DNA from: an uncultured Collinsella sp.
GTDB lineage: Bacteria; Actinomycetota; Coriobacteriia; Coriobacteriales; Coriobacteriaceae
DNA length: 8,038 nucleotides
Direction of reading: 5' to 3'
Assembly: GCA_958446785.1 (NCBI GenBank)
Contig: CAUCXP010000056.1
Coordinates: forward strand, 1-8,038
Shown: positions 1 to 8,038 of the stretch, piece by piece
Position numbering within the stretch: the first letter of the stretch is position 1
Layout: every line of letters starts with the position of its first letter
The notes under the pieces: generated by a model
What the model saw: the letters and a program-made list of their open reading frames with translations, nothing else
The model's database searches: none
Told to the model about the DNA's origin: nothing
Position numbers and translations under genes: made by a program

Positions 1-566
1 ACCCGCTCGAGATCTTTGCCACCAACGAGGGCGGCATGAGCTTCCACGGCGGCCTGGTGGGCGGCATCTTGGGCGGTATCATCGTGTGCCGCATGTACAA
101 GCTCGACGCCTGGACCATCGCCGACCTTGCTGTGATCGGTGCTCCGCTGGCGCTGTGCCTGGGACGTTGTGCCAATTTCGTCAACGGCGAGCTGTGGGGT
201 AAGCCGACCGATCTGCCCTGGGGTGTGGTCTTTGGCGGCACCGCGGGCGATATGCCGCGCCATCCCTCCCAGCTCTACGAGGCGTTCCTAGAGGGCATCG
301 TGCTCTTCTGTTTTTTGCAGGTGCTCAGCCGCAAAAAGCCACTGCTGCCCCAGGGCACGTTTATGGGCGTGTTCGTGATGGGGTACGGCATCGTCCGCTT
401 TCTCGTTGAGTTCGTGCGCGTGCCCGATGCGCAGCTGGGCTATCTGCTGGGAGGCGTTATCACCATGGGCCAGCTGCTGAGTTTGCCGCTCGTAATCGCC
501 GGCCTGGCGCTCATCATCTTCGCCCGACACCGCAACCGTCCCCAGCGCATCTACCTGGACGCCTAA
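1..566 (+). CDS. lgt: Prolipoprotein diacylglyceryl transferase, 3' part
   Basis: Lgt transfers the diacylglyceryl group of phosphatidylglycerol to the lipobox cysteine of prelipoproteins, the first step of lipoprotein maturation at the membrane. The reading frame is open from base 3; the gene begins before the window, so roughly the first 85-95 residues are missing by comparison with E. coli Lgt (291 residues). Visible family motifs: GGMSFHGG (30-53) with the histidine corresponding to E. coli H103 at 45-47; the Lgt signature GRCANFVNGELWG (162-200) with the arginine equivalent to R143 at 165-167; HPSQLYEA; and YGIVR with the tyrosine and arginine equivalent to Y235 and R239 at 384-386 and 396-398. 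The C-terminal MGQLLS segment and last membrane helix are present and the gene ends in TAA. All known key residues in the visible part are kept, so it should be active. The 83-base gap to the next gene has a stem-loop but no T-run terminator, so cotranscription downstream is possible. Confidence 0.97.
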   Translation, partial: PLEIFATNEGGMSFHGGLVGGILGGIIVCRMYKLDAWTIADLAVIGAPLALCLGRCANFVNGELWGKPTDLPWGVVFGGTAGDMPRHPSQLYEAFLEGIVLFCFLQVLSRKKPLLPQGTFMGVFVMGYGIVRFLVEFVRVPDAQLGYLLGGVITMGQLLSLPLVIAGLALIIFARHRNRPQRIYLDA

Positions 567-574
567 CCACCAAA

Positions 575-609
575 ACCACCACAAAGGGGACAGGCACCTT
601 TGTGGTGGT
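575..609. repeat. Stem-loop element copy 1 (GGGGACAGG core)
   Basis: A perfect 13-bp inverted repeat (575-587 with 597-609) encloses a 9-base loop GGACAGGCA. The core reads CAAAGGGGACAGG followed by CACCTTTG. It begins 8 bases after the lgt stop codon. No T-run follows on the + strand, so it is not a standard terminator; on the - strand the stem is followed by TTTT, but no - strand gene points this way. It is the longest stem of three related copies in the window (others at 2839 and 5452). Confidence 0.8.
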
Positions 610-649
610 CTTGCCGAGTTTGGCAGGTTTCTAGAAAGGCTTTTGGACT

Positions 650-2833
650 GTGAAGGATTCCGACCTCTCCACAACGGCTGCGCGCGACGCCGCCCGCATC
701 GTCTGGTTTAAGCGCTACCCAGCCAAGCAGACGCTCATCGCATTTTTGCTCGCGCTGTTGGCGACCACGGCGTTTTCTATCGATCCCGCCCCGGTGTCGA
801 GCAACGCGGTCTTGGCGATTGACCCCAAAGCCTCGGGCATGCTGTACGTGTGCTACGAGGTGCTCCTCTCGTTTGCCGGCCATACCGACGCGGTCATGCT
901 GCTTGCGCTTGCCTGCCTGCTCACTCTGCCGTTTCGCTACGTATTCTTTGGCCGCGGCGATGCTTGGCGTCCTTCGGTGATCCTTCCGTCGCTGTTCTTT
1001 GCCGTCTGCATGGTGTTTGGCCGCAGCTACGACCTCACCGATTCTGCCGAGATCGTGCTCGGCGACAAGGCTCGCATCATCTGCGCCTGGATAGGCGGTG
1101 CGGGCTGGATGCTCTTGGCGGTCGTTGCCTTCTACCTGGCTTTTGAGTGTCTAGATTGGCTGAGCTCTCGGCGCATTCCGTTTTCGGAAGCGCACTTTGG
1201 CCGCGTATGGCGTGTGGCTCACGCCGTGCTCTCGGTCCATCCCTTTGCCGGGCCCTTCCTGGTGCTTATGGTCGCCTGGGCGCCCACGCTTATCGCTTCG
1301 CTGCCCGGCCTTTTTATGGGAGATACGGGTGCGCAGATTCGCCAGTGGTTCAACTACCCCAACGGCACGAGTGACTACCTGCGTCTGCTCAATCCCAATG
1401 TGTTGCTCAACGGACATCACCCCGTGGTGCACACGGCTATCATCGGTTCGTGCGTCCAGCTGGGGCTTTCACTGTTCAACAGTGCCAACGCAGGTCTTGC
1501 CATCTACACCTGCGCTCAGTTCGTCATTACGGCCGCCTGCATGGCCTATTCCATCTCGTCGCTGCGCAAGCTGGGCGTGAGTCTGCCGGTCCGCGGCGTG
1601 ATCTTGCTGTTCTTTGTGTTTATGCCCATGTTCTCCAACTACGCGGCCCTGCTTACCAAAGATGTGCTGTTTGCCGACGCGTTTTTGGTGCTGTTGGTAC
1701 AGGCCGTGAAGCTCGTGGCATGCGGCCTGCCCCGTCGCGATGCCAATGCCGAGCGTGCGGGCGAACAGAGGCCCGTGCTCTTTGCGCGCCATGACTGGCT
1801 GCTGCTCGCTCTGGGTGCCATGGGTTCCACGTTTCTGCGCAACGGCGGCCTGGTGTTTCCCCTGGCGGCATGCGTAATCGCGGCGGCGTTTTGCGCATGG
1901 GACGCGCATGTGGCTCGTCGCGCAGCCAAGCAGGCTGGTGCTGCGTCTTCGGGCTCCATCCCGCGTTTCCGCTGGATGGGAGTTCTTGCGGTGCTTGCAC
2001 TCTGCCTTGCCTCTAATATGTACTTCACCAAGGTCTTTATGCCGGCGCACGACATTACGCCTGGTTCCAAGCGCGAAATCCTCTCGATTCCGTTCCAGCA
2101 GACGGCTCGTTTCGTCCAAAAGCACGACGGCCTCAACTCGGGTGTCAACCCTACGGTTAAGGAGGACGGCACTATCGTGGAGGCTCCTTGCGACGGCTTG
2201 GTGACCGACGATGAGCGTGCCGTGATCGACCGTGTGCTCAAGTACGACAATCTGGGCCGCCGTTACAACCCGGATAAGTCGGACGCTGTCAAAAATTGCT
2301 TTAACGAGTACGCCTCGCAGGAGGACATCAAGGCCTATTTTGAGGTCTGGGCGCAGATGTTCAAAAAGGATCCCGAGTGCTACATCTCGGCGCTCATCAA
2401 TAACTACTACGGCTACTTTTATCCGAGTGCCCGCGATGCGTGGGTCTACAGCACGGCGCGCAGTGCCGAGATTATGGCGAAGCCCGATAACCTCAAGTAC
2501 TTTGACTTCCATCCGGTCGATAGCAAGGTTGTGCGCTGGTGCGACCACCTGATCAACCTGTATCGCGTGGCAGTGCAGCGCATTCCGTTTATCTCGCTCA
2601 CCATGAGCTCGGCCACCTATGTGTGGATCATGATCGCCGTGGTGGGCTATCTGCTACGTCGTCATTCATGGCGCGGTCTGGCCATTTGGTTGCCGCTGCT
2701 GGGCGTGCTTGCCGTGTGCCTGATCGGTCCCTGCAACGGTTCGACCTATATGCGCTACCTGTATCCGGTTATCGCCTGCATGCCCTTTGCCATCGGGGCC
2801 ACCATCACTCGCAGCGACCTCCTCTGGTCCTAA
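650..2833 (+). CDS. DUF6020-type polytopic membrane protein, possible GT-C-like glycosyltransferase
   Basis: 727 residues. GTG start at 650, because an in-frame TAG lies at 632-634, a GAAAGG Shine-Dalgarno lies at 634-639, and the next ATG is codon 64. Membrane segments are seen near residues 27-43, 80-100, 107-124, 142-167, 199-218, 262-303 (two), about 314-360 (two), about 380-410, about 440-458, and three after residue 640. Residues about 460-640 form one large, mostly polar domain, probably outside the membrane, containing C514, C550, C577 and C631. Features I associate with DUF6020 are GLFMGDTGAQ (D225), NGHHPVVHT (H256, H257, H261), TKDVLFAD (K337, D338), LRNGG, and a C-terminal YMRYLYPV (R702, Y703). 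The combination of an acidic residue in an early loop, many helices and a large outer domain resembles GT-C enzymes that use lipid-linked sugars, but no activity is proven for the family. It lies between lgt and yebC; stem-loops flank it on both sides. Confidence 0.8.
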   Translation: MKDSDLSTTAARDAARIVWFKRYPAKQTLIAFLLALLATTAFSIDPAPVSSNAVLAIDPKASGMLYVCYEVLLSFAGHTDAVMLLALACLLTLPFRYVFFGRGDAWRPSVILPSLFFAVCMVFGRSYDLTDSAEIVLGDKARIICAWIGGAGWMLLAVVAFYLAFECLDWLSSRRIPFSEAHFGRVWRVAHAVLSVHPFAGPFLVLMVAWAPTLIASLPGLFMGDTGAQIRQWFNYPNGTSDYLRLLNPNVLLNGHHPVVHTAIIGSCVQLGLSLFNSANAGLAIYTCAQFVITAACMAYSISSLRKLGVSLPVRGVILLFFVFMPMFSNYAALLTKDVLFADAFLVLLVQAVKLVACGLPRRDANAERAGEQRPVLFARHDWLLLALGAMGSTFLRNGGLVFPLAACVIAAAFCAWDAHVARRAAKQAGAASSGSIPRFRWMGVLAVLALCLASNMYFTKVFMPAHDITPGSKREILSIPFQQTARFVQKHDGLNSGVNPTVKEDGTIVEAPCDGLVTDDERAVIDRVLKYDNLGRRYNPDKSDAVKNCFNEYASQEDIKAYFEVWAQMFKKDPECYISALINNYYGYFYPSARDAWVYSTARSAEIMAKPDNLKYFDFHPVDSKVVRWCDHLINLYRVAVQRIPFISLTMSSATYVWIMIAVVGYLLRRHSWRGLAIWLPLLGVLAVCLIGPCNGSTYMRYLYPVIACMPFAIGATITRSDLLWS

Positions 2834-2838
2834 TCTGC

Positions 2839-2863
2839 TGCAAAGGGGACAGGTCGCTTTGCA
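2839..2863. repeat. Stem-loop element copy 2 (GGGGACAGG core)
   Basis: A 7-bp perfect inverted repeat (TGCAAAG at 2839-2845 with CTTTGCA at 2857-2863) encloses the loop GGGACAGGTCG. The core CAAAGGGGACAGG is identical to copy 1, while the outer stem bases differ and still pair. It starts 5 bases after the DUF6020 gene stop codon. The right arm can also pair with a further CAAAG at 2865-2869, giving a competing 5-bp hairpin. No T-run follows. Confidence 0.75.
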
Positions 2864-2924
2864 CCAAAGGATGGCATCATCACGACGCCTTCATTTTGGG
2901 GTTTATCTCGCAGGCCAGTAGGTA

Positions 2925-2949
2925 TATCATAACGACGTTTGTTTATATT
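2925..2949 (+). promoter_or_regulatory. Possible yebC promoter region (-10-like boxes)
   Basis: The 165-base gap before yebC turns AT-rich here, unlike the rest of the window. Two -10-like hexamers are visible, TATCAT at 2925-2930 and TATATT at 2944-2949, each one base from TATAAT. I find no convincing -35 box at 16-18 bases for either, so the exact promoter is unresolved. The yebC Shine-Dalgarno AGGAG (2988-2992) lies further downstream. Confidence 0.3.
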
Positions 2950-2998
2950 GCCCGAGCATCTGCGCTGGGCTTTAGGTCAAAACCGATAGGAGACACGT

Positions 2999-3805
2999 AT
3001 GTCCGGACACTCTAAGTGGGCCACAACCAAGCATCGTAAGGGCGCGCAGGACGCCAAGCGTTCCGCCCTCTTCTCCAAGCTGAGCCGCAACATCACCGTT
3101 GCTGCCCGTCTCGGCGGTGACCCGCTGCCCGAGAACAACGCCAGCCTCGCCGCTGCCGTTGCTAAGGCCAAGGCTCAGTCCATGCCCAAGGACAAGATCA
3201 AGTCCGCTATCGACAAGGCTTTTGGTTCGGGTGCCGATGCCGCCGTCTACGAGAACATCGTGTACGAGGGCTATGGTCCCGCCGGTGTCGCCGTCTATGT
3301 TGACTGCCTGACCGACAACCGCAACCGTACTGCCGCCGATGTCCGTTCCGCCTTCTCCCACGCTGGTGGCAACCTGGGCACCTCCGGCTCCGTCGCCTTC
3401 CAGTTTGAGCGCAAGGGCCAGATCGTCGTCGCCAAGGAGATCCTGGACGAGAACGCCAAGAAGGAGACCATGATCGCCAACGGTGCTGCCGGTGACGAGG
3501 ATGAGTTCATGATGGCCATCGCCGAGGCCGGTGGCGAGGACTACGAGGACGCCGGCGAGGAGTGGATCGTCTGGACCGCTGCCAACGACGTCATGGCTGT
3601 CTCCAAGGCACTCGAGGAGCAGGGCATCCAGGTCAAGGGCTCCGAGACCACCATGGTTCCGACCACCCCGACCGAGGTCTCCGGTGCCGACGCCAAGAAG
3701 GTTCAGCGCCTCATCGACCGTCTCGAGGAGCTCGACGACGTCCAGGACGTCTACAGCACCATGGATATGACCGACGAGGTCATCGCTGCCCTCGAGGAGG
3801 AGTAG
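2999..3805 (+). CDS. yebC: YebC/TACO1-family translation or regulatory factor
   Basis: 268 residues, ATG start with AGGAG six bases upstream. The N-terminus MSGHSKWATTKHRKGAQDAKR is the family hallmark, followed by LFSKLSRNI, MPKDKIKSAIDKA, the YEGYGPAGVAVYVDCLTDNRNRTAADVR block (about residues 89-116), GGNLGTSGSVAF, and the C-terminal LEELDDVQDVYSTMD. The family was first described as transcriptional regulators; mitochondrial TACO1 and bacterial YebC proteins are now linked to translation, including relief of ribosome stalling at proline stretches. It acts in the cytoplasm. The protein is somewhat longer than the usual 240-250 residues, the excess being an acidic stretch around residues 150-195 (DEDEF, GGEDYEDAGEEW). 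Codons are strongly biased (GCC, CTC, AAG, GAG), unlike the neighbours, suggesting high expression. In many bacteria yebC precedes ruvC; here it does not, and a hairpin and terminator follow. Confidence 0.97.
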   Translation: MSGHSKWATTKHRKGAQDAKRSALFSKLSRNITVAARLGGDPLPENNASLAAAVAKAKAQSMPKDKIKSAIDKAFGSGADAAVYENIVYEGYGPAGVAVYVDCLTDNRNRTAADVRSAFSHAGGNLGTSGSVAFQFERKGQIVVAKEILDENAKKETMIANGAAGDEDEFMMAIAEAGGEDYEDAGEEWIVWTAANDVMAVSKALEEQGIQVKGSETTMVPTTPTEVSGADAKKVQRLIDRLEELDDVQDVYSTMDMTDEVIAALEEE

Positions 3806-3810
3806 CGCCC

Positions 3811-3828
3811 GCGCGGGTTAAGCCGCGC
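3811..3828 (+). other. GC-rich hairpin just after yebC
   Basis: GCGCGG (3811-3816) and CCGCGC (3823-3828) form a perfect 6-bp GC stem with the loop GTTAAG, beginning 6 bases after the yebC stop. No T-run follows, so it is more likely an mRNA 3'-end stabilising hairpin or a weak pause site than a full terminator. Confidence 0.5.
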
Positions 3829-3874
3829 ATATCTGGGCATAATGAAGCGAGCATGCAAGCCTCGTGGAATAGAT

Positions 3875-3916
3875 GAGCCGGATCCGCGTGCGTACAGCAC
3901 CGGACCCGGCTCTTTT
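3875..3916 (+). terminator. Rho-independent terminator after yebC
   Basis: GAGCCGGATCCG (3875-3886) pairs with CGGACCCGGCTC (3901-3912) with a single A-C mismatch. Inside it, GTGC (3888-3891) pairs with GCAC (3897-3900) around the loop GTACA, so the stem continues almost to the tip. Four T residues follow (3913-3916). It separates yebC from the amaP operon. Confidence 0.8.
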
Positions 3917-3921
3917 ATAAT
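3916..3921 (+). promoter_or_regulatory. Perfect TATAAT box, candidate amaP operon -10
   Basis: The T-run of the yebC terminator merges into TATAAT, an exact -10 consensus, 50 bases before the amaP start codon. The -35 position would fall inside the terminator stem or loop (about 3892-3898) and is not a recognisable TTGACA. The ten bases ATAATGATGC (3917-3926) recur upstream of the last gene at 6761-6770, which supports a promoter role there and here. Confidence 0.45.
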
Positions 3922-3971
3922 GATGCGAATCGTTTTGCATTCTGTGGATCGAGATTTGAAGGGAGCGCCGC

Positions 3972-4517
3972 ATGCGCGTGCTCAAACGAGCCCTAGCGAT
4001 CGTATATCTTGCCGCCGCCGTCGTGGCGCTGGGCACGTTGGTCTGCCAGTTTTGGGGGCCATATACCTACCGCTTTATGCTGCTGATGCGTGACCCCATG
4101 CCGCGCATTGTCGTTACAGTGAGCGGCGGTGTCGTGGCGCTTGGCGTGCTGGCGGTCTTCTTCCGCCTGATGTTTGCTCGCCGCGAGCCGTCCTGCGTGC
4201 ATCCGGCAGGGGAGCGCAATATCGAGGTCACGCTCGCGGCTCTCTCCTCGTGTGCCCGCGCTGCTGCCGAACGCGATGACCGCGTGATGGTCGAGCATAT
4301 CGAGGCGCGTGTTCAGGGTTCCGACGAATCGCACGTTCGTTTTAAGGTCGAAGCCATCGCGCTCGATGATAAAGACGTCGCTTCCCTTGCCACTGCGATG
4401 CAGCAGCGTATCGAGCGGGCCTGCGACACCATGCTCGGTACGCCGGGCACGACTGCGCGCGTTCGCTTTTTGCCGTCCAAGACTACCGTCCAGACCGTGG
4501 AGGTTTCCGGTGAGTGA
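3972..4517 (+). CDS. amaP: Alkaline shock response membrane anchor protein AmaP
   Basis: 181 residues, ATG start with AAGGGAG at 3959-3965. Two membrane helices are visible, about residues 7-27 and 44-68, joined by a short loop with several arginines and prolines. The remaining ~110 residues are an alpha/beta domain (NIEVTLAALSS near residue 83, VEHIEARVQ, RFKVEAIALDDKDVASLATAMQQRIERAC) of the kind found in AmaP, which itself resembles Asp23. In Staphylococcus aureus AmaP anchors Asp23 to the membrane. Here the gene heads a three-gene unit in the same order as in S. aureus (amaP, DUF2273, asp23), which strongly supports the name although the sequence itself diverges. Its last eight bases overlap the next gene. 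The unit starts right behind a terminator and so probably has its own promoter. Confidence 0.85.
   Translation: MRVLKRALAIVYLAAAVVALGTLVCQFWGPYTYRFMLLMRDPMPRIVVTVSGGVVALGVLAVFFRLMFARREPSCVHPAGERNIEVTLAALSSCARAAAERDDRVMVEHIEARVQGSDESHVRFKVEAIALDDKDVASLATAMQQRIERACDTMLGTPGTTARVRFLPSKTTVQTVEVSGE
4497..4512 (+). promoter_or_regulatory. Shine-Dalgarno and GTG start inside amaP end
   Basis: GTGGAGG (4497-4503) lies six bases before GTG at 4510-4512, within the last codons of amaP. This ribosome site decides the start of the DUF2273 gene: no in-frame ATG lies between the in-amaP ATG at 4309 and the conserved domain that would leave the genes separate. The eight-base overlap implies translational coupling of the two membrane proteins. 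Confidence 0.75.
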
Positions 4518-4887
4518 TACCAACCAAGACAAGACCGCCCGCACGCCGCGCCTGACGATCGACCAGAACGCTACGCCGGCAGGCGAGTCCGCCGACACCA
4601 AGCCCGAGGCCGGCGAGCAGCACGACAGCGCCGCTAATGACTTTGACGAGGCCATGGGTCTCATCAAAGGTACGGGCGCTGCTATCTGGAGCTACGCCGT
4701 GCGCCACCCCAACACTACGCTCGGTGCCGTGGCAGGCTTTATCCTCGCCGTGCTGGTACTTACATTGGGCCTGTGGGACACGCTCGTCATCGCATTCTTT
4801 GTGTTGATCGGCGCCGTGATCGGCCAGATTCGCGACGGCGAGAACGGTATCGTCAACTTCTTCGGCCGTCTGTTTAGCGGCCGCTAA
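4510..4887 (+). CDS. DUF2273 small membrane protein of the Asp23 cluster
   Basis: 125 residues from the GTG at 4510. Residues 1-55 are polar and rich in D, E, T and K (predicted disordered); residues 58-67 (IWSYAVRHPN) lead into two membrane helices, about 70-87 and 90-106, separated by a short GLWD turn, followed by GQIRDGENGIVNFFGRLF. The helical hairpin with GxIGQ/IxD after it fits DUF2273, a family of 60-70 residue proteins that accompany asp23 and amaP; the N-terminal extension is unusual in length for it. The function is not known; a role as partner in anchoring the Asp23 layer is inferred from position between amaP and asp23. The start overlaps the amaP end and the stop is 44 bases before asp23, so the three are surely one transcript. 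Confidence 0.8.
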   Translation: MSDTNQDKTARTPRLTIDQNATPAGESADTKPEAGEQHDSAANDFDEAMGLIKGTGAAIWSYAVRHPNTTLGAVAGFILAVLVLTLGLWDTLVIAFFVLIGAVIGQIRDGENGIVNFFGRLFSGR

Positions 4888-4931
4888 TACGTATTCGACT
4901 GTCGCATCCGCGGCAGGCATAAGGAGGAACC

Positions 4932-5447
4932 ATGGCTTTTAACACGAAGGTCGATGTGGCCGATACCGAGCTCGAGGCGAACGAGGCCGTCGCCGCCGAG
5001 GCGGAGGACGTAACGCTCGAGGACGAGACGCTCGTCGAGGCCGAGTCCGATACGGATGAGGACGACGAGGAAGCGGATGAGTCCGAGGACTCGCTGACCT
5101 ATTCCAACGGCGTGATCGAGAAGATCGTTGCCATGGCCACCCGCGAGGTTCCGCACGTTCTGGGCATGAAGGGTAACCTCATGCACTTTGTGCAGGAGCA
5201 GTTTGGTGCCGAGAATCTGACCAAGGGCGTGACGGTCGAGGTCACCGACGATAATCGCGTGGTCGTCAACATCTCCGTCATCATCGAGTACGGCGCCTAT
5301 GCGCCCGCGATCTTCGACGATGTTAAGGCACGTGTCACCGAGCGCCTTGCCGCGATGACCGGCCTTGAGGTGGCGGGCGTCAACCTGCGCATCGAGGATG
5401 TCATCACTCCCGAGGAGTACGAGCACCGTACCAGCCAGCACGAATAA
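4932..5447 (+). CDS. asp23: Asp23/Gls24 family envelope stress protein
   Basis: 171 residues, ATG start with a near-perfect AAGGAGG at 4921-4927. Residues 1-53 are extremely acidic (24 D/E against a single lysine) and have no counterpart in a minimal Asp23 protein. The Asp23/Gls24 domain runs from about 54 to 163: SLTYSNGVIEKIVAMATREV, GMKGNL, KGVTVEVTDDNRVVVNISVIIEYG, and the closing GVNLRIEDVITPEE. In Gram-positive bacteria such proteins are abundant, sit at the inner face of the membrane through AmaP, and are linked to alkaline, detergent and cell-wall stress. The strong ribosome site fits high output. It is the last gene of the amaP unit, followed by a stem-loop copy and then a strong terminator. 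Confidence 0.93.
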   Translation: MAFNTKVDVADTELEANEAVAAEAEDVTLEDETLVEAESDTDEDDEEADESEDSLTYSNGVIEKIVAMATREVPHVLGMKGNLMHFVQEQFGAENLTKGVTVEVTDDNRVVVNISVIIEYGAYAPAIFDDVKARVTERLAAMTGLEVAGVNLRIEDVITPEEYEHRTSQHE

Positions 5448-5451
5448 CCTT

Positions 5452-5476
5452 CCAAAAAGGGATAGGTTTGTTTTGG
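5452..5476. repeat. Stem-loop element copy 3 (GGGATAGG core, diverged)
   Basis: CCAAAA (5452-5457) pairs with TTTTGG (5471-5476) around AGGGATAGGTTTG. It aligns without gaps to copies 1 and 2 (AAA, GGGAYAGG, TTT are shared), with one C-to-T change in the core and different but complementary outer stem bases. It starts 5 bases after the asp23 stop codon. A 12-base word TTTGGCAGGTTT overlaps its right arm (5472-5483) and also occurs 10 bases after copy 1 (619-630). Confidence 0.6.
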
Positions 5477-5499
5477 CAGGTTTTATCTGCGAAAACGTT

Positions 5500-5541
5500 A
5501 AACGGCCGACCGCGCAAGCAAAAGCGTGGCCGGCCGTTTTT
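5500..5541 (+). terminator. Strong rho-independent terminator of the amaP-asp23 operon
   Basis: AACGGCCGACC (5501-5511) pairs with GGCCGGCCGTT (5528-5538) with one A-C mismatch, extended outward by an A-T pair and inward by GCGC/GCGT (5512-5515 with 5524-5527). The loop is AAGCAAAA and the stem is followed by TTTTT (5537-5541). This is the clearest terminator in the window. Confidence 0.9.
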
Positions 5542-5582
5542 ATACGCTCCCGATGTAGTCATACCGCTCGTCTAACTAGGGG

Positions 5583-5613
5583 TTGCAATCGTCGCGTTCC
5601 GCGTTACTCTAAT
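5583..5613 (+). promoter_or_regulatory. Possible promoter of the YitT-family gene
   Basis: TTGCAA (5583-5588) resembles a -35 box and TCTAAT (5608-5613) a -10 box, but the spacer is 19 bases, longer than ideal; TACTCT (5605-5610) gives 16 bases with a poorer match. The position, after a strong terminator and about 40 bases before the start codon, suits a promoter. Confidence 0.4.
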
Positions 5614-5653
5614 GGGCGCATTGTTTCCAAATTGTTAACGAGGGGTTGCCGTA

Positions 5654-6676
5654 ATGGCCGACGAGCACGAAACAGAAAGCAAGGCATGGGCAATTGAGGC
5701 CGCCGCGGCAGAGGCGGCATCGCGTGCTGCCGAGGAGGTGCATCGTCCTCCCGTAGTGCCGATGGAGCGCGTGGTCGATCGCGATGTTATCGAGCGGGGC
5801 GAGCGCGCTGGTCGCAAGCGCAGCCAGGAGCCGGGCTTTCCGCGCTTTTTTGCCGAGCTCAATTTGGGCCTGATCCTCACGGCCTTTGCCATCGTTGCGT
5901 TTAAAACCCCTAATCACTTTGCTTTTGGCGGCACCTCGGGCGTGTCGGTCATTCTGTCCACGCTGTTCCCGACCCTGCCCGTCGGCGTTTTTATGTGGAT
6001 TATCAATGCGGTGCTCGTCATCCTGGGCTTTATCTTTTTGGAGCGCAAGGCAATCCTGTGGAGTGTCTTTGCTTCGTTTGCGCTGTCCGCCTATGTTTCG
6101 CTGTTTGAGCTCTTTATTCCGACCGATGTCTCGATGACGGGCGATATGTGGCTCGACCTGTGCTTTGCCGTGATTCTGCCGGCGCTCGGCAGCGCCATCG
6201 TCTTTGATATTGGTGCCTCGACGGGCGGCACGGACATCCTCGCCATGATTCTCAAACGCCGCACGACGCTTGAGATCGGCCGTGCGCTGCTGCTGGTCGA
6301 TATCGGCATCGTGACCATCGCGGCCTTCTTGTACGGTCCGCGCGTCGGTCTGTACTGCGTGCTCGGCCTGTTTGCCAAGACGCTCGTGGTCGATAAGGCT
6401 ATCGAGAGCATCCACCTGCGCAAAGTCTGCACGGTCATTTGCTCCGAGCCCCTTAAGGTCGAGGAGTTTATCGTCAAGCATCTCAACCGTACGGCGACTA
6501 TCAGCCGCGGCTACGGTGCTTTCTCGGGCAAGTGCGTGACGGTGATCATGAGCGTGCTGAGTCGTCGCGAGGCCGTTCAACTGCGTCGCTACGCGCGCGA
6601 GATCGATCCGGGTGCCTTTATCACGATCGTCGACAGCTCCGAGATCGTCGGCAAGGGTTTCCGCGGAACGAACTAA
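5654..6676 (+). CDS. YitT-family membrane protein (YitT domain plus DUF2179)
   Basis: 340 residues, ATG start with GAGGGG at 5640-5645. Residues 1-65 are a polar extension, first Ala/Glu-rich then Arg-rich, longer than in typical YitT proteins. The YitT membrane region covers about residues 70-250: NLGLILTAFAIVAF, the FGGTSGVSVIL motif (91-101), helices near 111-129 and 135-155, then ILPALGSAIVFDIGASTGGTDILAMIL (174-200), whose glycine-rich motif mirrors the first, and two more helices. The C-terminal DUF2179 domain (about 255-335) contains ISRGYGAFSGK, LSRREAVQLRRYAREIDPGAFITIVDSSEIVGKGF. The family is widespread and paralogous in Firmicutes and actinobacteria; the soluble domain may bind a ligand or control a transporter, but substrate and function are not established. 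It is monocistronic at the 5' side. No T-run terminator follows, so some transcription may enter the next gene. Confidence 0.93.
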   Translation: MADEHETESKAWAIEAAAAEAASRAAEEVHRPPVVPMERVVDRDVIERGERAGRKRSQEPGFPRFFAELNLGLILTAFAIVAFKTPNHFAFGGTSGVSVILSTLFPTLPVGVFMWIINAVLVILGFIFLERKAILWSVFASFALSAYVSLFELFIPTDVSMTGDMWLDLCFAVILPALGSAIVFDIGASTGGTDILAMILKRRTTLEIGRALLLVDIGIVTIAAFLYGPRVGLYCVLGLFAKTLVVDKAIESIHLRKVCTVICSEPLKVEEFIVKHLNRTATISRGYGAFSGKCVTVIMSVLSRREAVQLRRYAREIDPGAFITIVDSSEIVGKGFRGTN

Positions 6677-6713
6677 CGCGGTCGAGCTCATCAAACAATC
6701 GAATAGCGCCCTG

Positions 6714-6728
6714 CGCATTGCAAATGCG
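6714..6728 (+). other. Short hairpin between the YitT gene and the last gene
   Basis: CGCATT (6714-6719) and AATGCG (6723-6728) form a perfect 6-bp stem around GCA. There is no following T-run, so it is not a convincing terminator. It could be a weak pause site or an operator-like palindrome upstream of the last gene. Confidence 0.3.
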
Positions 6729-6759
6729 TCATGTTGGAGTATTTGTCCCCACATTGGGT

Positions 6760-6765
6760 GATAAT
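6760..6765 (+). promoter_or_regulatory. GATAAT box, candidate -10 of the last gene
   Basis: GATAAT is one base from TATAAT and lies 61 bases before the chosen start codon. The surrounding ATAATGATGC (6761-6770) is identical to the sequence at the amaP operon's TATAAT box. A weak TTGGAG (6734-6739) lies 20 bases upstream, so the -35 is doubtful. Confidence 0.4.
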
Positions 6766-6826
6766 GATGCCAAAGACATCGTTTGCGATCCAGATGATTC
6801 GCTCAAGATACGAAGGGATGATCTCG

Positions 6827-8038
6827 ATGTTCTGTTCGCAGTGTGGTGCCCCCATGGGCGATAACGACAAGTTCTGCGGCGCGTGTGGTGCCCCCAATGC
6901 CGGTGCCGCAGCCTCTGCCCCTCAGGGTCAGCCCCAGCAGTTTGTTCCGCAAACGCCCGTGGCGAATGCGTCCAAGGGCTGTGTGGCTCAGGCGTTTGAG
7001 GATATGACCAAGACTCCGGGCGTGCTGCAGCGCGTGTGCCAGATTGCCTTTTTACCGGCGCTGATTTGTGTTGTGTCGGTACTCGTGCTGTTTATTCCCG
7101 TTATTGGCGGCATTGCAGCTGCCATCGGCTTTTTGGCAGCTTGCATTGCGAGCGTGTGCGGTTCCGGCTTTGGTATTGAGTGGGGTCGCGATCTGTCGCT
7201 CAAGGTTGATGACGGTATGGATCGTCCACTCATGCGTTCCACGTCGTTTGGCCTCGGAGTCTTTTCGAGCGTTATCTCGGTCGTGCTCGAGGTTATCGCT
7301 GCCATTCCCGTTATCGGTGTAGTGCTTTCGCTGGTGGAGAGCGTGGTAATTGGCGCCGCGGGCTCGTATTCGTATTACGGCTCTTATGCACTCGAGGCAG
7401 CGCTGTTCGGCTCGCTTGGCCTGCTTGTCCTGGCTATGATTGCCACGGCGGTCTTGGGGGTCTTCTTTAAGATGTTCGCCGACATTGCCGTGATGCACTT
7501 TGCGGTGACCGGTCGTGTCGAGAGCGCGTTTTCGCTCGATAAGGTCTGGGCGGCCTTTAAGCACAACAAGACCAAACTGTTCTGCGCTTCGTTCCTTCCC
7601 GAGTTTTTGACGGGTCTGGTCGCCAACGTTGTCACATGGATCCTGACGCTCGTCTTCGGCGCCATTGCCTCTGTCGGTATGTATAGCTACTACTACCGTC
7701 CTTCGGCTATTGAGGCGCTTGTTACCGGCGGTGGCATCACGCTCGTATTGTTCTTGGTGCTGACGGCGTTTGTCACGGTATTCCTCACGGTCTTTGGCAA
7801 GATGCTCAAGCATCGTGCCGTTGGCTATTGGGTTGCGCGCTACGCAAGCGAGTGGGCCGACGAAGACAAGGACGACGTCCTGACTTTTGTGCTGCCGTTT
7901 GAGAAGAAGTCTGCTCCGGCTGGTTTTAGCGCCGACGCAGCGCCCGTATCCGATTCCGCTGCGGCGCCTGCGCCCGAGCCCGATCCATGTGGTGGACGAC
8001 GAGGTAGGCGGGCTTCTCCCCTGCCAGTGCCTCGGTGA
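6827..8038 (+). CDS. Zinc-ribbon, DUF4013-like multispan membrane protein, C-terminus probably frameshifted
   Basis: 403 residues from ATG 6827, chosen because AAGGGA (6813-6818) lies eight bases before it and because the zinc ribbon begins at residue 3; an in-frame ATG at 6818 overlaps that ribosome site and one at 6731 lies upstream of the likely promoter. Residues 3-20 are a double CxxC zinc ribbon (C3, C6, C17, C20). A Gln/Pro/Ala linker (25-48) leads to six or seven membrane segments: about 73-92, 95-112, 141-176, 191-217, 252-285 and 301-324. The FAVTGRVESAFSLDKVWAAFKHNKTKLF block (225-252) and AFEDMTKTPGVLQRV (56-70) resemble DUF4013. Two IPVIG motifs (90-94, 160-164) suggest an internal repeat. 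The function is unknown; the ribbon may mediate protein contacts. After the Ala/Pro tail (362-386) the frame becomes Arg-rich with poor third-position GC, while the +1 frame reads a plausible acidic continuation, so the TGA at 8036 may not be the true end. Confidence 0.75.
   Translation: MFCSQCGAPMGDNDKFCGACGAPNAGAAASAPQGQPQQFVPQTPVANASKGCVAQAFEDMTKTPGVLQRVCQIAFLPALICVVSVLVLFIPVIGGIAAAIGFLAACIASVCGSGFGIEWGRDLSLKVDDGMDRPLMRSTSFGLGVFSSVISVVLEVIAAIPVIGVVLSLVESVVIGAAGSYSYYGSYALEAALFGSLGLLVLAMIATAVLGVFFKMFADIAVMHFAVTGRVESAFSLDKVWAAFKHNKTKLFCASFLPEFLTGLVANVVTWILTLVFGAIASVGMYSYYYRPSAIEALVTGGGITLVLFLVLTAFVTVFLTVFGKMLKHRAVGYWVARYASEWADEDKDDVLTFVLPFEKKSAPAGFSADAAPVSDSAAAPAPEPDPCGGRRGRRASPLPVPR

Follow-up and report, generated by a model that had tools for sequence, protein, structure and literature searches.

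TIRtrons, described in 2013, are TIRYT genes located between inverted repeats, some of which carry the motif GGGGWSAS (Di Nocera et al., PMC3733652, according to its main text). Y1 transposases of subclass 2.1 (TnpA-Y1) are characterized in the text of Quentin et al. 2018 (PMC6006769) by the motifs NHVH or NH[YF]H, FQ or W[EQ], and YIELNP or Y[IV]HLNP, together with a C-terminal helix-turn-helix (HTH) domain. For the tested TnpA-REP systems, the accessible text reports cleavage at a CT beside the hairpin, a requirement for GTAG and, in some systems, an effect of the loop (PMC8266576). Here we describe three hairpins with a common GGGAYAGG loop, each placed behind a stop codon, in an 8,038-nt stretch of DNA (referred to as the window) from a Collinsella sp. 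(assembly GCA_958446785.1, contig CAUCXP010000056.1, positions 1 to 8,038, forward strand). Judging from sequence comparison, these hairpins are probably non-autonomous mobile elements, which would be moved as single-stranded hairpins by a TIRYT/subclass 2.1 Y1 (HuH) transposase.

As in TIRtrons, a Y1 gene can lie between inverted repeats, and the repeats form moderately abundant families with many dimers or clusters, some of them self-complementary; unlike the TIRs of that system, which are long terminal repeats mostly unrelated to repetitive extragenic palindromes (REPs), the Collinsella repeats hold the motif in the loop of a hairpin with a covarying stem (PMC3733652, main text). NHxH, FQ and Y[IV]HxNP-like motifs, a C-terminal HTH and flanking GGGG[AT][CG]A[CG] are shared with subclass 2.1, but the automatic and manual searches reported in the article text found no REP-like sequences near those genes, whereas the Collinsella genes with these marks have them (PMC6006769). 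REP and REPIN repeats with their RAYT transposases (subclasses 2.2 and 2.5) are likewise short extragenic palindromes present in tens of copies or more, some in inverted pairs, with a cognate Y1 transposase whose repeats are specific to the family (PMC6006769, article text); they differ in their GTAG foot, which is lacking here, where the fixed part is the loop. IS200/IS605 elements also rely on Y1 HuH chemistry acting on single-stranded hairpins (PMC3733652 and PMC6006769, in their main texts), whereas the transposases here combine a C-terminal HTH with the Y---NP motif of class 2, and no gene is carried by the repeats themselves.

The kind, i.e. TIRYT genes with GGGGWSAS terminal repeats, is thus already known; what looks new is the motif's place in the loop of a hairpin with a covarying stem, the large populations behind stop codons, and the exchange at the loop. 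No description of a TIRYT-type repeat in Collinsella, nor of GGGGWSAS as the fixed loop of a covarying stem, was found in a literature search outside which lie most subscription journals, figures and supplements. The word Actinobacteria is absent from the main text of the TIRtron paper, figures aside (PMC3733652). Among the matches listed for the motif GGGGACAGG, titles suggest primer or oligonucleotide hits and none concerns a bacterial repeat. The accessible text of the DeepHGT paper mentions palindromic patterns at transfer sites, with Collinsella among the genera, and does not name this hairpin.

The hairpins and their parts are as follows; sites 1 to 3 denote the gene junctions that carry copies 1 to 3.

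571..613, + strand: hairpin copy 1 (family A, consensus AAAACCACCACAAAGGGGACAGGCACCTTTGTGGTGGTTTT), behind the lgt stop codon (TAA, 564-566); the longest stem has 17-bp arms with one mismatch
586..594, + strand: loop motif of copy 1, GGGGACAGG
619..627, - strand: TTTGGCAGG, the one arm left of a family B hairpin that was formerly the inverted partner of copy 1 (site 1 alignment)
2836..2866, + strand: hairpin copy 2 (named family F here), behind the stop codon of a gene with DUF6020 (TAA, 2831-2833)
2845..2853, + strand: loop motif of copy 2, GGGGACAGG
5446..5482, + strand: hairpin copy 3 (family B, AACCTTCCAAAA-AGGGATAGGTTTG-TTTTGGCAGGTT), with a stem that begins inside the stop codon of the Asp23 gene (TAA, 5445-5447)
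5459..5466, + strand: loop motif of copy 3, GGGATAGG (GGGACAGG in most relatives)
5481..5497, + strand: 3′ tail of copy 3, TTTTATCTGCGAAAACG, of which the TTTTATCTG part is conserved beyond the hairpin in family B

An earlier note on this DNA had reported three stem-loops at these places, with a gap-free core and compensating outer pairs, starting 5-9 bases after stop codons and not easily due to chance. The structures were fully borne out. The core AAA-N-GGGAYAGG-NNNN-TTT aligns without gaps in the three copies, while the outer pairs vary and remain complementary, and a covariance model trained on 17 rows, the three copies included, gave exactly three matches in the window (E 2.3e-11, 9.8e-9 and 1.1e-8). 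First-order Markov resampling of the window yielded a mean of 0.005 such hairpins, and three of them in none of 1000 resampled windows, in agreement with the judgement on chance. The location directly behind stop codons also held, but the spacing needs revision: the longest stems start 4 bases after the stop codon in copy 1, 2 bases after it in copy 2 and within it in copy 3. When folded alone, copy 1 is far stabler than its shuffles (z -4.4 as RNA, -5.4 as DNA); copies 2 and 3 are no stabler than shuffles as RNA (z -1.0 and -0.8) and moderately so as DNA (z -2.3 each). Copy 2 has lost part of its outer pairs in the window, while relatives retain them (TTGGTGCAAAG/CTTTGCACCAA). The loop at site 2 reads GGGGACAGG in four of 19 relatives, GGGGTCAGG in ten and other variants in five.

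Copy number was determined in 58 related genomes. The core pattern AAAGGGGACAGGNNNCTTT is present in 20 of them, and the reversed pattern in none. With up to three mismatches allowed, family A (the stem of copy 1) occurs in 14-38 copies in each of 16 genomes, with a lone match in a 17th (G028), and family B (the stem of copy 3) in 19-44 copies in the same 16 genomes; reversed controls gave no match in any of the 58. The covariance model, with which the earlier note had proposed to count copies, matched in 26 of 39 genomes and indeed gave tens of copies per genome, at least 58-77 in each of the 13 genomes with families A and B among the 39 and at least 100 in G009, which lacks both families; these genome counts are lower bounds, with at most 150 candidates scored per genome. 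Letter-perfect copies are found within a single genome, G015 (eight of family A and six of family B). Across the phylum, the word GGGGACAGGCACC occurs in 31 of 246 genomes, four of them of the same genus; against the remaining 27 stand 30 genomes with the reversed control. Taken by itself, the word is therefore near chance beyond the genus, save for a few genomes with 2-4 matches.

Stem covariation among further copies, whose lack would have refuted the earlier note, was evident when 17 hairpins were aligned, as was a fixed loop. The alignment has nine invariant columns, of which seven fall in GGGACAGG, and 13 of 14 stem pairs have changed on both sides. Pairing was found in 87.9% of stem cells, against 55.6% after shuffling and 51.6% and 49.5% when slid by one column, figures that are biased towards structure because the rows had been picked as hairpins. 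A choice-free check on 800 kb of G015 found 12 of 24 GGGGACAGG or AGGGACAGG words in stems scoring at least 7, compared with 13 of 535 occurrences of 60 permuted control words. Copies 1 and 2 fit the GGGGWSAS motif (GGGGACAG), and family B does so only partly (copy 3 AGGGATAG, family B mostly AGGGACAG). Outside the core, family A has a symmetric AAAA...TTTT frame (T in 60, 50, 49 and 42 of 61 rows at the four 3′ positions), and each of the nine letters of the family B tail TTTTATCTG is conserved in 20-24 of 24 rows, some copies being listed twice. Letter counts upstream of these 61 family A and 24 family B rows revealed no GTAG, when a 5′ GT[AG]G foot was looked for.

Matches to PF01797 were identified in 37 of the 58 relatives. 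A motif-free search for inverted hairpin pairs around Y1 genes was given 57 loci, two of which had no match; many of the loci are mutual orthologues, and 14 belong to RAYT345, a Y1 gene considered below. A pair scoring at least 17 was found at 15 of 55 loci; for 300 mismatched hairpin pairs the 99th percentile was 14 and the highest score 25. At 13 of these 15 loci GWCAG is present in at least one copy of the pair, the exceptions being L098 and L119. A Y1 gene flanked by the same stem-loop, which the earlier note had suggested looking for, was found for the stem of copy 3: family B hairpins lie at both sides of the gene in L102 and L074 (genomes G019 and G004). A further locus, L111, has a family-B-like loop region within a different stem. 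The Y1 genes of L079 and L103 each lie between hairpins of their own. The first meaning offered in that note, a REP-like element moved by a Y1 transposase, therefore agrees with the many copies, the covariation and the inverted flanking hairpins; it has to be modified in that the enzymes resemble TIRYT/subclass 2.1 rather than a GTAG-reading RAYT, and that the search for such a flanked gene was negative for the stems of copies 1 and 2.

The GGGGWSAS motif itself was counted around Y1 genes from 67 same-order loci and 20 loci of other classes of the phylum. Copies of the motif that point outward lie at both ends of 10 of 47 genes of the same order (6 of 33 non-redundant ones) and of 9 of 16 genes from other classes, and copies that point inward at both ends of none of the 47 or the 16. 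For the wider GGG[AT]C[AG]G, 17 of the 33 non-redundant same-order genes have it outward and one inward. Several Y1 genes from other classes are also surrounded by GGGGTCAGG, the commonest loop at site 2. One other-class gene, L222, has inverted flanking hairpins with GGTCAGG (GGTCAGGCA) in the loop, and the loop-tagged form may extend beyond this order.

The catalytic domain of the Y1 proteins is predicted from Pfam matches and motifs. NH[VIF]H, Y[IV]xxNP and F[QED]xR are present in all 12 aligned proteins (FQ in eight), and a C-terminal HTH-like block in 11, L102 being truncated; the printed motif HLNP is exact in only two of the 12. Seven proteins were scanned with Pfam HTH models: L101 passes the cut-off, L091 and L118 match weakly, and L103, L111 and L074 have no match. 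Comparison of the L103 sequence with solved structures revealed no Y1 relative. In these motifs and the C-terminal HTH, the Collinsella transposases resemble TIRYT/subclass 2.1, though the published motifs are narrower than their F[QED] and HxNP. Loop type changes 12 times on the transposase tree, with eight loop labels over 24 labelled rows and without a shuffled comparison. We do not claim cospeciation of loop and protein, as the same loop recurs in separate branches of this tree.

Orthologous junctions, whose comparison the earlier note had also proposed, revealed a turnover of the elements. One was named after a gene that we take, from its first residues, to be aroQ; 26 of 30 loci were examined there, and 7 were left unresolved. 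Of the 14 resolved genomes of the clade with families A and B, 12 have family A at this junction, in some of them with altered letters in the loop. In the other two, L245 has family B, which begins at the same stop codon, and L253 has a degenerate element. All five resolved genomes outside the clade have no element, and the aroQ element is thus restricted to the clade, with family A replaced by family B in L245. At a second junction (orthologues of L181), 12 of 26 examined loci were resolved, all from the clade, and 10 of them carry family A. L277 is a chimera in which the left half of family B is joined at the loop to the right half of family A, and L273 is a broken element, the break lying right after GGGGACAG.

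The window sites differ in their history. At site 1, paired hairpins as in a REPIN (family A with a second, inverted family B hairpin) are kept in 13 of 20 relatives; in the window and the other seven, about 61 bp are gone, leaving one family B arm. Site 3 has family B in all 13 clade genomes compared, with the loop damaged in three (L303, L307 and L311), and in none of 12 same-genus genomes outside the clade. In four of these 12, GGGG-type repeats of other kinds lie no more than about 130 nt from the same Asp23 stop codon, with stems scoring at least 7 in L320 and L322 and weaker ones in L319 and L323. The Asp23 junction looks as if it were a repeated target across species. Taken together, the junctions show elements gained, replaced and recombined at gene ends, with a transposase as the putative agent.

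Some observations concern hybrid forms. In L174 and L186 the family B left arm TAACCTGCCAAAA is joined directly to a family A hairpin, and the site orthologous to L174 in G015 (L161) carries an inverted family B element. Inverted hairpin pairs about 400 and 960 bp apart, with genes in between, were found in G008 and G011. When L201 is compared with L177, and L157 with L207 and L125, inverted pairs with a spacing of some hundred bases in one genome seem to have given way, by collapse, to a single hybrid hairpin in another. In-place inversion of a hairpin was considered and reread as such a collapse, the right flank aligning only beyond the second copy; among 29 orthologous groups, both orientations occur in one, which lumps the two hairpins of site 1.

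In the proposed mechanism, the transposase would bind the extruded hairpin on one strand, with the loop motif as the signal common to all families and the stem as a family-specific mark, and would cut and rejoin single strands. Most of the copies that survive would be those directly behind stop codons, where a hairpin does little harm; transcript ending could also be assisted by the T-run that follows many stems. RAYT345 (L101, L076, L078 and orthologues), no more than a candidate enzyme for families A and B, is a Y1 gene that evolves fast and occurs once per genome, at one fixed locus, in the clade with these families. At 65% identity or more it is present in 15 of the 16 genomes with both families and in none of the other 42; internal stops occur in G004, G013 and G029, and the gene is possibly domesticated.

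Several results weigh against this mechanism. We infer mobility from comparison, not from observed transposition or cleavage. Both genes flanked by family B are perhaps impaired, L102 being truncated at the C-terminus and L074 having SHIH in place of the NHxH of the others, and no Y1 gene flanked by the stems of copies 1 or 2 was found among the 55 loci. Forty of these loci (14 of them RAYT345 orthologues) have no pair scoring at least 17, and four of the 15 pairs score no higher than the null maximum. The numbers of repeats and genes do not run in parallel: G006 has 19 model matches and no Y1 match, while G018 has two Y1 matches and one model match. In other classes, a scored hairpin pair accompanies none of the nine genes with the motif at both ends, and three other genes of the 16. 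RAYT345 sits at its fixed site without such hairpins around it, and G007 has families A and B without RAYT345. Families A and B and this gene are confined to what looks like one clade of 16 genomes, so that their co-occurrence may reflect a single event and amounts to no more than one correlated event. The stem of copy 2 is a third one, whose form AAAGGGGACAGGTTACTTT was found at no fewer than 1-2 places per genome among the matches listed. Finally, the clade yielded no clean empty site, the loci compared giving only the site 1 deletion and the collapse events.

A more far-reaching reading, which we put forward tentatively as a serious possibility, is that these repeats form a third REP superfamily, tagged by the loop instead of the foot. 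The old GGGGWCAG motif of subclass 2.1 would have been taken into a hairpin loop, leaving the stem free to diverge by family; the transposase would cut and join at the loop, so that arms are exchanged and families replace each other at the same stop codon.

The strongest rival, possible although on balance doubtful, holds that the repeats were once spread by a transposase and are now passively inherited, being reshuffled by recombination or template switching at the loop or arms. Such relics would fit the occupation of site 1 in all 20 relatives and of site 3 in all 19 compared, with damaged loops in some copies, and of site 3 in all 13 clade genomes; a close homologue of the family-B-flanked gene is present in only 2 of the 16 genomes bearing family B, seemingly impaired in both. 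The chimeras break at the loop, which short-homology template switching would equally produce. However, the letter-perfect copies in G015 and the family swap at the aroQ junction suggest recent activity.

The position of the copies bears on another alternative, in which the hairpins act mainly at the RNA level, as portable intrinsic terminators or 3′-end stabilisers selected behind stop codons, and the transposase link is merely historical. After orthologues had been merged, 61 distinct places remained (the window's three included), 57 of them intergenic; they were drawn largely from family A pattern matches and Y1 loci, and genes were called by a simple codon-usage caller. The earlier note had raised orientation relative to stop codons and, as its second meaning, a function in the 3′ untranslated region. 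A gene in sense lies upstream of 42 of the 57 intergenic copies, compared with 43% expected, and the loop of 25 lies within 35 nt of a sense stop codon, compared with 3.0% of random intergenic positions. These values, and the AAAA before and TTTT after many family A copies, speak for an RNA function, which is compatible, in a secondary role, with the position and the T-runs that follow many copies of families A and B.

As the main function it is nevertheless unlikely. Termination requires neither an invariant loop nor transposase genes framed by inverted copies; copy 2 lacks a T-run, and behind copy 3 lies another terminator-like hairpin, at about 5502-5543. Moreover, in convergent gaps the copies are not significantly nearer the sense stop codon (14 of 22, p 0.14), and the orientation bias in co-directional gaps is weak (17 versus 7, p 0.06). 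A scan of the window with Rfam 15 gave no known RNA family above the gathering score, and its three sub-threshold matches all lie elsewhere than the hairpins. A terminator scan of the window, which permits loops of 3-8 only, listed none of the three copies. The non-autonomous mobile element remains our preferred reading, and the 3′-end function of the earlier note may be secondary to it. Among the near-stop copies, TAA is the stop codon in 15 of 25, compared with 201 of 563 genes, which hints at a TAA target preference and is too weak to claim. Chance hairpins in a compact genome, to which the RNA folding of copies 2 and 3 might have pointed, are ruled out by the resampled windows and the reversed-pattern controls in all 58 relatives.

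Three genes of the window end at the hairpins:

3..566, + strand: lgt, prolipoprotein diacylglyceryl transferase (Pfam LGT, E 2.4e-55), with the 5′ end cut by the window
650..2833, + strand: membrane-protein gene with DUF6020 (profile scan)
4932..5447, + strand: Asp23-family protein gene (profile scan)

The window also contains two small genes and a YitT-family gene. Two further genes are putatively YebC-like and zinc-ribbon-like. The nearest named relatives of the window (20 loci) are Collinsella, many of them C. aerofaciens, and G001 is the nearest of the compared genomes, with 55% of sampled words in common. The DUF6020 protein is matched at 93-98% identity over nearly its full length in 19 of the 20 loci; the remaining match is a short piece.

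Collinsella and its order supply natural gene-hairpin pairs with one loop type and many stems, which makes recognition by the protein directly testable. Such a system would account for a repeat found at the ends of dozens of genes in a genus of gut bacteria, and the repeat could confuse the annotation of terminators or of RNAs from 3′ untranslated regions. The further terminator-like hairpin 3′ of copy 3, absent from the terminator scan, was recognized by eye at 5502-5543 of the window, where GGCCGACCGCGC...GCGTGGCCGGCC is followed by TTTTTAT.

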